NCBI GenBank assembly: GCA_021234155.1
Contig: JAJEKV010000011.1
Span: 682,001-746,000 of the forward strand
Direction: 5' to 3'
Length of the DNA: 64,000 nt
From: Isoetes taiwanensis
Taxonomy: Eukaryota > Streptophyta > Lycopodiopsida > Isoetales > Isoetaceae
Of this stretch, positions 46,767 to 60,788 are shown piece by piece; position 1 is the stretch's first letter; each line of letters opens with the position of its first letter. The notes below the pieces were generated by a model. That model searched no databases. It worked only from the letters and a program-made list of their open reading frames with translations, and was not told the origin of the DNA. A program made the translations under genes and the position numbers.

Positions 46767-46835
46767 TGGGGAGGGGGGGGGGGGAGGGAGGGAGGGAGGG
46801 AGGGGGGGGAGAGAGAGAGAGAGAGAGAGAGAGAA
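46767..46835 (-). repeat. (CCCT)n-(TC)n tail of LINE 1
   Basis: Read on the minus strand, the tail is TTTC, then (TC)13, then C-rich CCCT repeats to 46767. It is the leftmost tail of the array and abuts ordinary DNA. Confidence 0.85.
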
Positions 46836-46858
46836 AGAGTGTGTATTATGTCTATGGG

Positions 46859-46873
46859 AGGCCTCGAAGGCCT
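46859..46873 (-). other. LINE 1 3'-end hairpin
   Basis: AGGCCT-CGA-AGGCCT, a 6-bp inner stem; the outer stem is GTCTA (46850-46854) with TAGAC (46876-46880). It lies about 25 bp before the tail. Confidence 0.75.
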
Positions 46874-46887
46874 ATTAGACGACAATT

Positions 46888-47875
46888 TTAAATGTCATTG
46901 TAAAACAATAAATGAGTTTCTGAGTCCTCATCTAACTCATCACTCTCACTCAAACTGTCATTATCATCAACATTATAATTATGCATACAAACTTCTCTAT
47001 ACTGTAAAAGCTCAATCAAATATTTCCCTAATATATCCCCATTTAGGGTGAAAAAGGTTGGCAGATCTTCGTAGTATATTCCAAACTTATCACGTAATAT
47101 ATTGTATGATGTGCATCGAAGCAATGCATGGTCCTCATCCTCTACTTTATCTTCCCCACATATTTTACAGTATCTTTAATCTCTAGGAATAATATGTCCC
47201 CATCTATCCACTTCCACGTCTAAATGATGTGAACTAAGCCGAATCCTGCAAATAGCATGTCTTTTTTGGATAGAAATATTTTTCCCAGGTGCCCTGCCAT
47301 TCCATTGTATATCCCATTTATTGAGCTACTTCTTGACATCTTGAAACAAATCGTTCTCCTTGCTGGCTAACAAAGCCCTACGTGTAATTCTAGTGTCATC
47401 CATGAGTAACACCTTCTTACGTGATGCATCTAAGGATGGCTTCCCCTTCCAAAGGCATGAGACCACATTCTGCTAACATCAAAAAGTAAATTGTTTGGGC
47501 TTTAACTTCTAATTCCATTCTCAAAAATTTCTTTAAGACCTGCTCAATATCATCCCATAAGCATTGTGGCAAACTTGGTCCCCAAATTTCACATCCATAT
47601 AAGACTACACTCTGGACAAGTGACTGAAAGAGTCTCACCTTAAGATTCCATGATCAAAGGTGTGTTCTCCTGCACATGCTCTGCAATGCATATAAAGCCC
47701 GTTGTCCACCATCAATTCGTTGTGTGATGCATGCATTCCATCTATGATTACTACTAAATACAAGGCCCAAATATTTGTATGAATCACACATACTTACCAT
47801 GCTCCCCTCATATCTGACGGTATGTTCTTGTTTAAGTGCTCCTACAGTCATAATGCTTATTTTTTCGAGGTTCAC
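46888..47875 (-). pseudogene. LINE 1 RT thumb and C-terminal domain, broken
   Basis: Frames 47875-47654 (TVGALKQEHTVRYEGS, YKYLGLVFSSNHRWNACI), 47638-47417 (LVQSVVLYGCEIWGPSLPQC) and 47124-46888 (LLRCTSYNILRDKF, LIELLQYREVCM, ending DEDSETHLLFYNDI) align in order with LINE 3. The zinc motif lies between 47190 and 47110 in a shifted frame. Several indels separate the frames. Confidence 0.85.
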
Positions 47876-48399
47876 CTGTATACATCAGCCAAGCCTTCCA
47901 AGTGTTTTTGCATATGATCTTTAAAGCGTGCAAAAATGACTACATCATCTGCATACATTAGCAACTGGATCACATATCCATGTATTTCCATTCCCCCTGG
48001 GCAAATCTTAAGCAGCCAATCCTCTAAACCATCAATAAAAAGTCCAAACAATGTGGGGGATAGCGGACATCCCTGTTTGACCCCAAGATTACTTTCAACA
48101 TGGTCCTGGATATCTAATGAAAATGGTAAAGATAATTGCACAAGCACTTTTTCATACAGAACTCGGACTGCATCTCTAAGCTCCTTGGGCACCTTCAACT
48201 TATCCAATCTTTCCCACAACTGGCCACGCGGCACTTTATCAAATGCTTTTTTAAAGTCTACAAATGCCATGTAAACTGGTTTTTTAGTACCTTTAACCAT
48301 GTCAAATATAGCTTTTAACACTAATAGATAGTCTAAAGTAGCCCTTCCAGCTCTAAAATCTGCTTGTGACTCTGCACGCTTTTGATTGTGCTCTGCCAA
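47872..48399 (-). pseudogene. LINE 1 reverse transcriptase core
   Basis: The 175-residue frame covers SQADFRAGRATLDYLLVLKA, YMAFVDFKKAFDKVPRGQLW (block A with both acids), NLGVKQGCPLSPTLFGLFID and the catalytic LLMYADDVVIFA. The core residues are intact. It continues into the thumb in another frame at 47875. The missing N-terminal blocks make it non-functional. Confidence 0.9.
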
Positions 48400-57665: not shown

Positions 57666-57699
57666 GAGATAACCGTTTGTACCAATACTTTAAAGAGCA

Positions 57700-59148
57700 T
57701 GCGTTTCATTTCAAAGTTCCAAATGTCAAAGATTCACACACCTTCTCTCGCATTGCATATAGTGCCTTTAAGCCCACACTCACTCTATGTTCGACCGCCT
57801 GATTCCAATTCGACTTTTGTCTACAGTCAAACCCAGATACTTATAGTTTTCAACGACCTCAACTTGCTTACCCTTGTAAAATAGCCGCACATGATCTGTT
57901 TTATTCGCCTCCAAAAACAATGACCTTTTAGTCTTTTCCAGATTCACCGCATACTTTTAGCATCACAAAACCAAAGCAAGCACATCCAAATGTCTTTGCA
58001 TCCCCCTCAGATGCTCCGAGATAGCAACACAATATCATCAAAGATATAGCAAGAGCATAAGTACATACCCATTCAAGGATGTACCATCCCTCCATGTGCT
58101 CTTATCCACCCCTCCAGCTGATCTATGAACAATCCAAACAAGGTAGGCGACAAAGGACACCCCCTGTTTGACTCCCATATTACTCTCTACTACATCATCA
58201 CACATTCCAAGAAAGAGAGTTGCACGAGTACTTTTTTATAAAGAACACTTACCGCATGTCCGAGCCCCATCGGATGCCCAAATCTACCATCCTATGCCAC
58301 AGATTTTGCCTATTCACCATGTCAAAGGCCTTGCTTGAAATCCACAAATACAAAGATATAAAGGTTTCCTTTTTCCCACCACTGAATCCATCATAGCACG
58401 AAGGGTGACCAAATGGTCAGTTGTAGACTTTTTAGGTCTAAAGCCCGCTTGGCCTATTGCTCTAGCATTGTGATCCTCTCTCAGGTTGCTTATCTTGCCC
58501 TCAAGTATAGAGGCATACGCTTTTGCGTAAAGGTCGCCAACCATAATGGTACGGTAGTTACCCTGATCAGATGCATCTCCCTGACTTGTGCAATGGCACA
58601 ACCCTATTAACCCGCCAGCCCTAGGAAACCCATCTCTCAAAGCCATATTGAACATGTCGACCAGCCTATTCAGAATCGCTTCTCCAAAATTTTACCACTT
58701 AAGCATTTCGCCTTAAGGCCACAAGCATCTGCCGCTTTGCCATTAGCAAGTCTCTTGAGTCCCACCAACATCCTCCGAGTAAAGGTAAGCATATCATCCA
58801 TCTCACATGTCTCTTTTCTACCATCTTATCCTCAACTCCATGGACATGGTATAAATTATGTACATGCTCCATTAGTGCCTCCGCTTGCAACATATTATTC
58901 CCATGCTTCAAGGGTTTAAGCCTATTCCAAAATTTCTTTGGATCAACCAGCAGTTCTTCCACCATTCGCCTATGTTTACGATGTAAATATGCCTTCTTCT
59001 TATTTTTGACCAGTTTGGTATACACTTTCCTTTCCTGTACTTTAGCTGCCCCTTGTGCTGCTCTAAATTTTTGCCTCTGCTGTTTACATTCCATGTCAAA
59101 CCATCCATTACATGGCAGCCCCTCCGCTTGCGGTGAGATACAAAACAT
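57700..59148 (-). pseudogene. LINE 4 linker and reverse transcriptase, broken
   Basis: Frame 59148-58699 carries the linker (GLPCNGWFDMECKQQRQKFR, KNKKAYLHRKHRRMVEELLV); 58655-58314 carries GNYRTIMVGDLYAKAYASIL and QAGFRPKKSTTDHLVTLRAM. The block A, GVKQGCP and YxDD regions between 58310 and 57990 are spread over several frames, with the GQ-C-L-SPTLFGLFID string recognisable around 58160-58110. The enzyme is dead. Confidence 0.8.
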
Positions 59149-60110
59149 TCATTCGCTGATTCAAGCAAAACCCTAGACAACGCCTCACTCATATCCCCTA
59201 CTGATGTGGGCCATGCAAAAGATGCCATTTTCTGCTCGCATATCTCGCTATATTCATCAGCTTTATCATACTTGAGAGACATCCATTTACCTATATATGT
59301 ATCTTCTTGCTGCCTATGATGCCACTGTACATGAAGTTCAATGAGCAAAGGTACATGATCCGAGCTTTCATTCTCATCTCCAATGCGTAAGCTAATAACA
59401 TGTTCTGCAAAAGTAGGTTTGGCAATAACATAATCCACCACACTAGCATTTTTACAAGTGCTTTTACCGAGCTCTGGGTACCTATCCGTGCCATTGAAGA
59501 TCACCATCTCAAAACCACTACACATATGTAAGACATGACGCCCTGCGGTGTCGCCATTTCACATTGTCTTCGATGTTCTCGCTTCCATCCGATTGTCTTC
59601 AGCTCAAGATCATCCAAAGATTTCCAACCATTCTCGCTTCCCATCCGGGCCCACCAAAGTCGCTTGATGGTTTCCCGTGACGCCATTAAAGTCTCCTAAC
59701 AATAGCACTTCCCCGCCAAACCCAAAGCTAGTATATCCTGCTCTAAGTGAAAGAATGGGTCATCCTTATCCGCATCTCCTTTGTTATACACGGTGATTCC
59801 CTTGGGGAAATAACAACCAGCTACATATATCTTGTTGCCCCTACACCGCAATTCAATCCAAATGTATTGTGCGCTTGCCTTATGTGTCAAAACACACACC
59901 GCATGCACAATTTCATTATGTGAAAGCATAGCATGCAATACCACCCGGCCTTTGAGATTCCAGCCCTTCTTATTCCATAATCAATGCAATAGCGTAAAAC
60001 CAGAAATATCCGAAGAGCCTTTTCCTCATGCTCACACGCTTCCAAAAAGAAAACTATGTCTACATTTGCTAGCAAGTCATCCATAGCACATATCTTACTA
60101 CTTTTTAACG
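58908..60110 (-). pseudogene. LINE 4 endonuclease and linker, broken
   Basis: Frames in order: 60084-59887 (DDLLANVDIVFFLEACEHEE with the Glu), 59944-59696 (IWIELRCRGNKIYVAGCYFP), 59686-59501, and 59525-58908 (CSGFEMVIFNGTDRYPELGK, CKNASVVDYVIAKPTFAEHV, NESSDHVPLLIELHV with the SDH site). The GDFN motif is disrupted near 59695. Frames change about every 150-200 bases. Confidence 0.85.
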
Positions 60111-60149
60111 TATTTACATTCCAAAGAAACTAACTCGGCGGTCCGCTAC

Positions 60150-60601
60150 TTCCTATGCATCCTCCACAATCACTTTTCCGCCTCTCCAAGAAGTAAGCAC
60201 GCTTGTCCAGCCGCTCTTGCCTCCTTCATCCTCTTAAGATCTTCTCTTCTCTGCTGAAATTGGGTCTTAGTTAAGTCGCCATTGACCCATATATATTTGC
60301 CCTTAAGCAATGTTCGCCGTGATAACCCGAGCCTTCGCTTCCTTGATGCGACTTCACCAACACATTCCGTGTTCCTTCCCCCTTCCTTCCAACCCGTGAC
60401 GCCTCCAAAATATCCACCTGCACCTGCATATTCTCTGCAAGAAATGTTTGAACAGCCATGCTTGTGTCCTCATTCTCCTTTTCTGGTAAGGCCGAAATTC
60501 TGAAATTATTAGCCTTTGATTCTCTTTCATGCATATCAGCCAAGTGCTCCATTTTCTCATTCAAAGCATCAATTGCTCCTTGAAAACCATCATTTGAGCC
60601 C
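60150..60601 (-). pseudogene. LINE 4 ORF1, coiled coil and RRM-like domain
   Basis: From the (TC)n junction: GFQGAIDALNEKMEHLADMH (coiled coil), KANNFRISALPEKENEDTSM, AVQTFLAENMQVQVDILEAS and RVGRKGEGTRNVLVKSHQGS, which is the L1-type ORF1 RNA-recognition motif pattern (NNxRIxxLPE...RVG...RxVLV). After a shift the C-terminal part reads FQQRREDLKRMKEARAAGQA. The protein would coat LINE RNA. This segment identifies the short ORF1 tails of LINEs 2 and 3. Confidence 0.8.
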
Positions 60602-60788
60602 GAGAGAGAGAGAGAGAGAGAGAGAGAGAGAGAGAGAGAGAGAGAGAGAGAGAGAGAGAGAGAGAGAGAGAGAGAGAGAGAGAGAGAGAGAGAGAGAGAG
60701 AGAGAGAGAGAGAGAGAGAGAGAGAGAGAGAGAGAGAGAGAGAGAGAGAGAGAGAGAGAGAGAGAGAGAGAGAGAGAGAGAGAGAGAG
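60602..60788. repeat. (GA)93 tract at the 5' end of LINE 4
   Basis: An uninterrupted 187-bp GA array. Unlike the other tracts, no retroelement is recognised on its right side, so it may be the original microsatellite into which the array grew, or the tail of an unrecognised element. Confidence 0.97.

Follow-up and report, generated by a model that had tools for sequence, protein, structure and literature searches.

LINEs with (TC)n tails probably insert preferentially into (TC)n microsatellites in Isoetes taiwanensis

The window analyzed here, a stretch of 64,000 nucleotides of Isoetes taiwanensis DNA, contains four LINEs and two SINEs lying head to tail on the minus strand, all six in the same direction and joined by pyrimidine tracts. 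Read along the minus strand, on which all of the following features lie, the array opens with a (TC)93 tract (60602..60788), the 5' flank of LINE4 (56757..60601), a decayed element 5'-truncated in ORF1 whose 3' stem-loop TAGACC..GGTCT is followed by (TTTCA)n. A CCCT/TC pyrimidine tract (56716..56756) joins LINE4 to SINE1 (56515..56715), which has a truncated head and a (CTAT)n tail of its own and belongs to a family found mostly outside TC. The end of this tail, together with a TC/CCCT tract (56462..56514), leads to SINE2 (56303..56461), whose head looks tRNA-like by eye and whose tail is AAAAAATACATC(TC)n. Then follow a TC-rich tract of about 300 nt (55995..56300), LINE3 (52489..55994; 5'-truncated near the end of ORF1, with an APE-type endonuclease, a reverse transcriptase (RT) and the 3' stem-loop AGGCC..GGCCTCC), a (TC)12 tract (52465..52488), LINE2 (48969..52464; 5'-truncated near the end of ORF1, with an RT and a weak endonuclease match), a (TC)28 tract (48910..48966) and LINE1 (46840..48909), whose (TC)13 plus CCCT tail (46768..46839) closes the array at its 3' end. 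The 5' end of LINE1, a short leader followed by an ATG, looks genuine by eye; most of the body after a 176-bp tandem duplication is missing, and an RT remnant is present. Re-reading of the sequence bore out the coordinates, element order and common orientation given in the first-pass annotation, as well as its claim that each tract is the 5' flank of the next element despite differing truncation, which is seen for LINE4, LINE3 and LINE2: they start at differing points of ORF1, each immediately after a tract. All seven TC/GA runs of at least 6 units in the window lie in array joints, with two in a single joint, whereas none occurs in the remaining 49.9 kb of the window; TC runs are thus more frequent at the joints than expected by chance.

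An artefactual assembly of the array had been named as an outcome that would refute targeting. As judged from the assembly, it is unlikely, since the contig also carries, starting at a distance of about 56 kb, an inverted and diverged copy of LINE4-SINE1-SINE2-LINE3-LINE2 that is 75-85% identical, and the same pattern is found on many contigs. In the diverged copy, LINE4 is preceded by (TA)n and TC. The similarity stops at LINE2, so the paralogue is uninformative on LINE1, and it cannot serve as an unoccupied site for the window's array, as it carries the array up to LINE2 itself.

The LINEs have two types of 3' end, one in LINE1 and LINE3 and the other in LINE2 and LINE4. An APE-like endonuclease (Exo_endo_phos) and an RT were matched by Pfam, both within one ORF of 1105 aa; the RT also matches R2 chains and LINE-1 ORF2 chains. 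For ORF1, only weak Pfam and PDB matches were obtained, mostly of coiled-coil or helical type.

The first-pass annotation had proposed to look for an excess of TC at genomic LINE 5' flanks. We did so in the window's 1.66 Gb assembly for part of the genome's copies, namely 45 LINE copies whose 5' side could be seen, hand-curated from 50 machine rows, and an upstream tract was counted if it was a pyrimidine tract of TC or CCCT type. Such a tract lies within 600 nt upstream of 37 of the 45 copies, where chance would give roughly 16% per 600 nt, and within 60 nt upstream of 22 of the 45 (chance, 1.65% per 60 nt); after removal of the window's own four LINEs, 33/41 copies still have one within 600 nt. 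At the other end, the 3' stem-loop, located by pattern, leads into a TC-type tract in 33 of 35 LINE 3' ends. Full-length heads (L009, L011, L013, L014 and L015) and bodies truncated at many points all abut TC, and the possibility that the tract is the element's own 5' UTR was therefore rejected. The duplicates L010 and L016, which lie on one contig, have the same tract without (L010) and with (L016) an extra 5'-truncated LINE. Loss of the LINE from L010 by recombination between TC tracts is possible instead of a gain in L016. Further duplicate loci within the sample are L009/L012 and L017/L019.

There are exceptions. The upstream TC tract is absent in 8/45 LINE copies, and a LINE-LINE joint without TC was found at about position 3505 of L012; this joint is hidden in a merged row and does not count among the 45. 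L009 has a short LINE piece with TC at its flank that is likewise outside the 45. LINE pieces on the opposite strand occur in three of 20 long loci (L021, LINE5-like; L023, LINE2-like; L027, weak), and a fourth, weak piece appeared in L011 with LINE5 queries only. Targeting of (TC)n by these LINEs is strong, but not absolute.

The association was also approached from the side of the microsatellite, with 20 (TC)12+ tracts chosen systematically and without regard to LINEs. A LINE or SINE of these groups adjoins 14 of them, in every case (14/14) sense on the TC strand, and the other six have no such element beside them. For the 100 tracts listed out of 2403, neighbouring TC-tract pairs at most 10 kb apart share their orientation in 23 cases and are opposed in none. 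The anchored (TC)12 count in the assembly is 2403, compared with 253 for (AC)12. The earlier proposal that these LINEs lie in (TC)n, oriented along the TC strand and forming arrays, is borne out far outside the window, too.

We consider it highly probable, given the directly observed TC flanks, orientation, arrays, control family without these features and single occupied/unoccupied duplicate, that APE-endonuclease LINEs of one group prefer (TC)n microsatellites as insertion sites and have a tail that matches the target. In the mechanism that we propose, the LINE endonuclease would nick the (GA)n strand, and the free 3' end would pair with the (UC)n stretch that ends the LINE RNA behind its 3' stem-loop; reverse transcription would begin at this pairing, that is, priming by the repeat, and the 5' end of the cDNA, often truncated, would be joined to upstream TC sequence. 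As the TC strand would set the orientation, successive insertions would face one way, and every insertion would supply its own (TC)n tail as the target for the next.

The first-pass annotation had also assigned the SINEs to the LINE machinery, and here the two families part. The tail of SINE2 is (TC)n in 20/20 copies. As 8 of these 20 copies lack an upstream TC tract, a TC tail is possible without a TC target; by eye, no target-site duplication was evident in the SINE2 copies outside TC. At the 20 SINE2 loci, a LINE 3' stem-loop lies just upstream in five and LINE coding sequence downstream in nine (E 0.001). The SINE2 and LINE 3' ends are similar by eye, the stem-loop of one SINE2 copy has a z of -1.76, and the bare SINE2 head, flank disregarded, has 86 exact matches in the assembly. 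SINE2 probably shares the tail and insertion route of the LINEs, on which it would depend. SINE1 speaks against the proposal: its tail is (CTAT)n, its 3' end resembles by eye that of LINE5, and 18/20 copies lie outside TC, by which it was rejected as a TC element. At least 36 distinct sites have (TC)4 at most 14 nt upstream of a SINE1 head, and none has (GA)4. SINE1 is a SINE with another tail that is sometimes caught in TC.

Template jumping, in which several RNAs are copied in one reverse-transcription event into a TC-joined, head-to-tail concatemer without any choice of target, would predict both the common orientation and the TC joints; the R2 RT can jump between templates, and the TC tails of SINE2 outside TC targets fit as well. 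However, ordinary DNA would be expected before the 5'-most element, where LINE4 has (TC)93 and its diverged copy (TA)n and TC. Moreover, TC tracts precede five SINE2 copies (L034, L038, L039, L040 and L044) for which the roughly 200 nt read before the element contain neither a LINE stem-loop nor a LINE match, the array members belong to different families, and L010 differs from L016 by one whole LINE in a common tract. We regard this explanation as unlikely.

LINE5 (14504..17086, minus strand), a related LINE with an (ATTCTT)n tail that lies in the window outside the array, provides a natural comparison for the matching of tail and target. None of the ten LINE5 3' ends read has a (TC)4 run, and none of five copies has an abutting (TC)4 run at the 5' end; upstream of one copy (L092), at 60 and 123 nt, there are two short TC runs (4 and 5 units). 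This control bears on the view that (TC)n is a mere tail grown by slippage after unselective insertion, the arrays being due to the abundance of TC. Every SINE2 copy read is TC-tailed, also outside TC, as this view would have it, but it is very unlikely in light of the TC-type tracts upstream of 37/45 LINEs, the position of LINE5 and 18/20 SINE1 copies outside TC in the same genome, and the lack of any such run in the 49.9 kb of the window beyond the array. A build-up of the arrays out of few insertions, by segmental duplication and by recombination between TC tracts, can draw on real duplicates (the window's array, L009/L012, L010/L016 and L017/L019), but is extremely unlikely with array members of different families, differing truncation points and the pattern at tracts on many contigs.

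With preferential insertion into (TC)n as the preferred reading, each LINE copy seems to add to its own landing site: with one repeat as both tail and target, new landing sites would arise with every insertion. SINE2, which has the common tail, would probably take the same route, and SINE1 would be caught occasionally. In four copies (L014, L026, L042 and L079), an ATG of ORF1-start type lies 1-9 nt past the TC tract, and the frame is open across the stretch read in three of the four; the tract may thus double as the promoter of the next element. A tentative extension is that the LINEs build their own habitat, in which target, tail and promoter coincide, a large share of long (TC)n is their product, and foreign SINEs are drawn in. 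The group may be one origin of the long dinucleotide microsatellites in a genome. Arrays that extend from their own tails would tend to spare genes from insertions.

Among the open-licence literature matches listed, no TC-targeting plant LINEs were found in titles or abstracts. With one kind of target and a fixed orientation (37/45; 23 versus 0), though with exceptions, the LINEs described here behave as target-specific APE-type non-LTR retrotransposons. TRAS and SART, LINEs of the R1 clade at telomere repeats, likewise combine a short tandem repeat target with a fixed orientation, but their target is the telomere repeat, whereas here it is (TC)n. Kibi and Koshi were reportedly described by Kojima and Fujiwara in 2004 as fish LINEs of the Tx1 clade at TC/TTC microsatellites; a TC microsatellite target of an APE-type LINE is what we find as well. 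These elements are said to belong to fish and to Tx1, whereas our LINEs come with arrays, a TC-tailed SINE and elements adjoining 14/20 sampled long TC tracts. Both names appear in PMC2684134. Togen, a group of (TG)n-specific fish LINEs, also has a dinucleotide microsatellite target, but PMC4640811 treats it with the relatives of NeSL, a clade that encodes an RLE; the endonuclease matches here are of the APE type (Exo_endo_phos), unlike those expected of the RLE-type NeSL, HERO and Togen. According to PMC3747384, plant L1-clade LINEs have, like ours, a 3' stem-loop, and they are accompanied by SINEs whose 3' end is similar, as that of SINE2 is by eye, but most of these LINEs, not all, end in poly(A), whereas 33/35 LINE 3' ends here lead into a TC-type tract and the elements insert into (TC)n. 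Among clades with APE-like endonucleases, site-specific LINEs are mentioned only for Tx1 and R1 in PMC13295347; if the present group truly lies outside both, it would represent another origin of site-specificity.

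The array (46767..60788) comprises four LINEs and two SINEs that all face one way on the minus strand, with TC tracts at the joints and ends, and its order and orientation agree with the first-pass annotation. All seven runs of ≥6 TC/GA units in the window fall within 46.8-60.8 kb, at element joints or ends (two of them share one joint), and none occurs in the remaining 49.9 kb. As had also been proposed, the ORF1 truncation points differ, with LINE4, LINE3 and LINE2 each starting directly 3' of a tract; LINE1 begins, by eye, with a short leader followed by ATG, and a 176-bp tandem duplication (48553-48914) lies at its start. 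LINE3 has APE-like endonuclease and reverse transcriptase (RT) domains, as does a full copy elsewhere; LINE2 has an RT domain plus a weak endonuclease match and LINE1 an RT domain match only. ORF2 is open over 1105 codons in three of nine copies with ORFs listed. The array together with its 5' flank has an inverted paralogue about 56 kb away (60820-61661 and C919:799708-811967). Elsewhere in the window, an ORF on the plus strand (37812-39608) has RVT_3/RNase H 5' of RVT_1, an atypical arrangement for Ty3-type elements.

With the LINE3 RT as query, the 1.66-Gb assembly yielded 1353 candidates, 40 of them scored (the window's own included), and the 20 ranking after the window's own were examined as loci of 9-10 kb each. 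Most LINE copies have a TC tract both upstream and downstream in sense orientation, with more LINEs following on the same strand; of the 20 loci, three (L021, L023 and L027) contain opposite-strand LINE pieces, and LINE5 queries revealed a weak one in a fourth, L011. For the 5' side, 50 machine rows were reduced by hand to 45 copies, the window's four LINEs included (six continuations or cut copies dropped, one row split in two). In 22 of the 45 copies, which are not all independent because three locus pairs are duplicates, a pyrimidine tract of the TC or CCCT type lies within 60 nt upstream, as compared with a chance of 1.65% for a random point in the same loci. In 15 more the tract lies 61-600 nt upstream, and several of these gaps, part of the 15 having been checked, consist of leader or ORF1 start belonging to the element itself. 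The other 8 have no upstream tract or another repeat in between. This count leaves out one junction between two LINEs that lacks TC (L012) and a small LINE fragment flanked by TC (L009). At the 3' side, a TC-type tract directly follows 33 of 35 stem-loops found by pattern.

Both exceptions belong to one duplicated locus, L010/L016, whose copies lie on the same contig with both flanks in common (91-95% identity). L010 reads flank-(TC)n-(AC)n-LINE; within the tract common to both, L016 carries an extra 5'-truncated LINE of ~3.4 kb in the same orientation, after a C-rich marker also present in L010. The two read as one site without (L010) and with (L016) the extra insertion; the difference may instead reflect loss of the LINE from L010 through recombination between TC tracts.

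Insertion at (TC)n was also approached from the tracts. The assembly holds 2403 (TC)12 tracts anchored by a fixed terminal base, versus 253 occurrences of a matched AC pattern. Among the first 100 listed, all from the first contigs of the file, neighbours ≤10 kb apart share orientation in 23 of 23 cases. Every fifth of these was read (20 tracts): in 14 a LINE or SINE, always sense on the TC strand, borders one or both ends, and 11 tracts lie directly 3' of a LINE end and 2 directly 3' of a SINE2 tail. Up to six have such elements on both sides (L071, L072, L078, L079, L081 and L085), counting a weak downstream LINE match 113 nt off in L072 and a downstream ORF1 start called by eye in L079. None of these LINEs or SINEs adjoins the other six, one of which (L077) adjoins another repeat. 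A repeat with ends like GGCCACATGC / GCATGTGGCC also adjoins TC tracts on either side (L010 3759, L016 270, L028 4032, L013 2002, L017, L018 7984, L019, L024 8205 and L077 576).

Of the two SINEs, SINE2 has a TC tail, and SINE1 usually lies outside TC. All 20 SINE2 copies read among 39 other scored ones have a TC tail. A TC run lies upstream of 12 (13 counting L047, which abuts a LINE end almost directly) and a GA run upstream of none; a LINE 3' stem-loop precedes 5, and LINE coding similarity follows 9 at E 0.001 (>50 bits in 6). SINE1 ends in (CTAT)n, and 2 of 20 copies read among 39 others lie within TC and none within GA. SINE1 heads adjoin TC at no fewer than 36 distinct sites among 100 listed of 129 matches, and GA at none. 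The head word AGTCTAGTGGTAA recurs at ~26, 52 or 78 bp spacing, satellite-like, at C68:580787-582298 and C118:15864-20961 of the assembly (G000).

LINE5 (14504-17086, minus strand), a related LINE with a 3' stem-loop and an (ATTCTT)n tail, served as control; its family has 8952 first-look candidates in the assembly. Its identity to a TC-LINE ORF2 over the aligned part is 38%, against 48% for LINE2. No (TC)4 run was found at the 10 LINE5 3' ends read, and TC abuts none of five 5' flanks (window, L092, L093, L094 and L106; ≥350 nt read each), the L092 copy being preceded by TC runs of 4 and 5 units at distances of 60 and 123 nt. By eye, the LINE5 3' end resembles that of SINE1.

In the TC LINEs the tail matches the target; LINE5 has another tail and another location. 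A nicked (GA)n strand could pair with the (UC)n tail and prime reverse transcription; such a start would account for orientation, both flanks and array growth. The 3' stem-loops of both TC LINE types are slightly more stable than shuffled versions (z -2.2 for each), the values being -1.8 for SINE2, -1.5 for LINE5 and -0.1 for SINE1.

Among the titles and abstracts listed in searches of open-licence literature, none describes TC-targeting LINEs arrayed with SINE partners. Fish LINEs targeting TC and TTC were reportedly described by Kojima and Fujiwara in 2004. That work is cited in PMC4640811, and PMC2684134 names the Kibi and Koshi families. According to PMC12477314, microsatellites frequently surround elements of plants and humans and are interpreted as landing pads, and the plant L1-clade LINEs in PMC3747384 mostly carry poly(A) tails.
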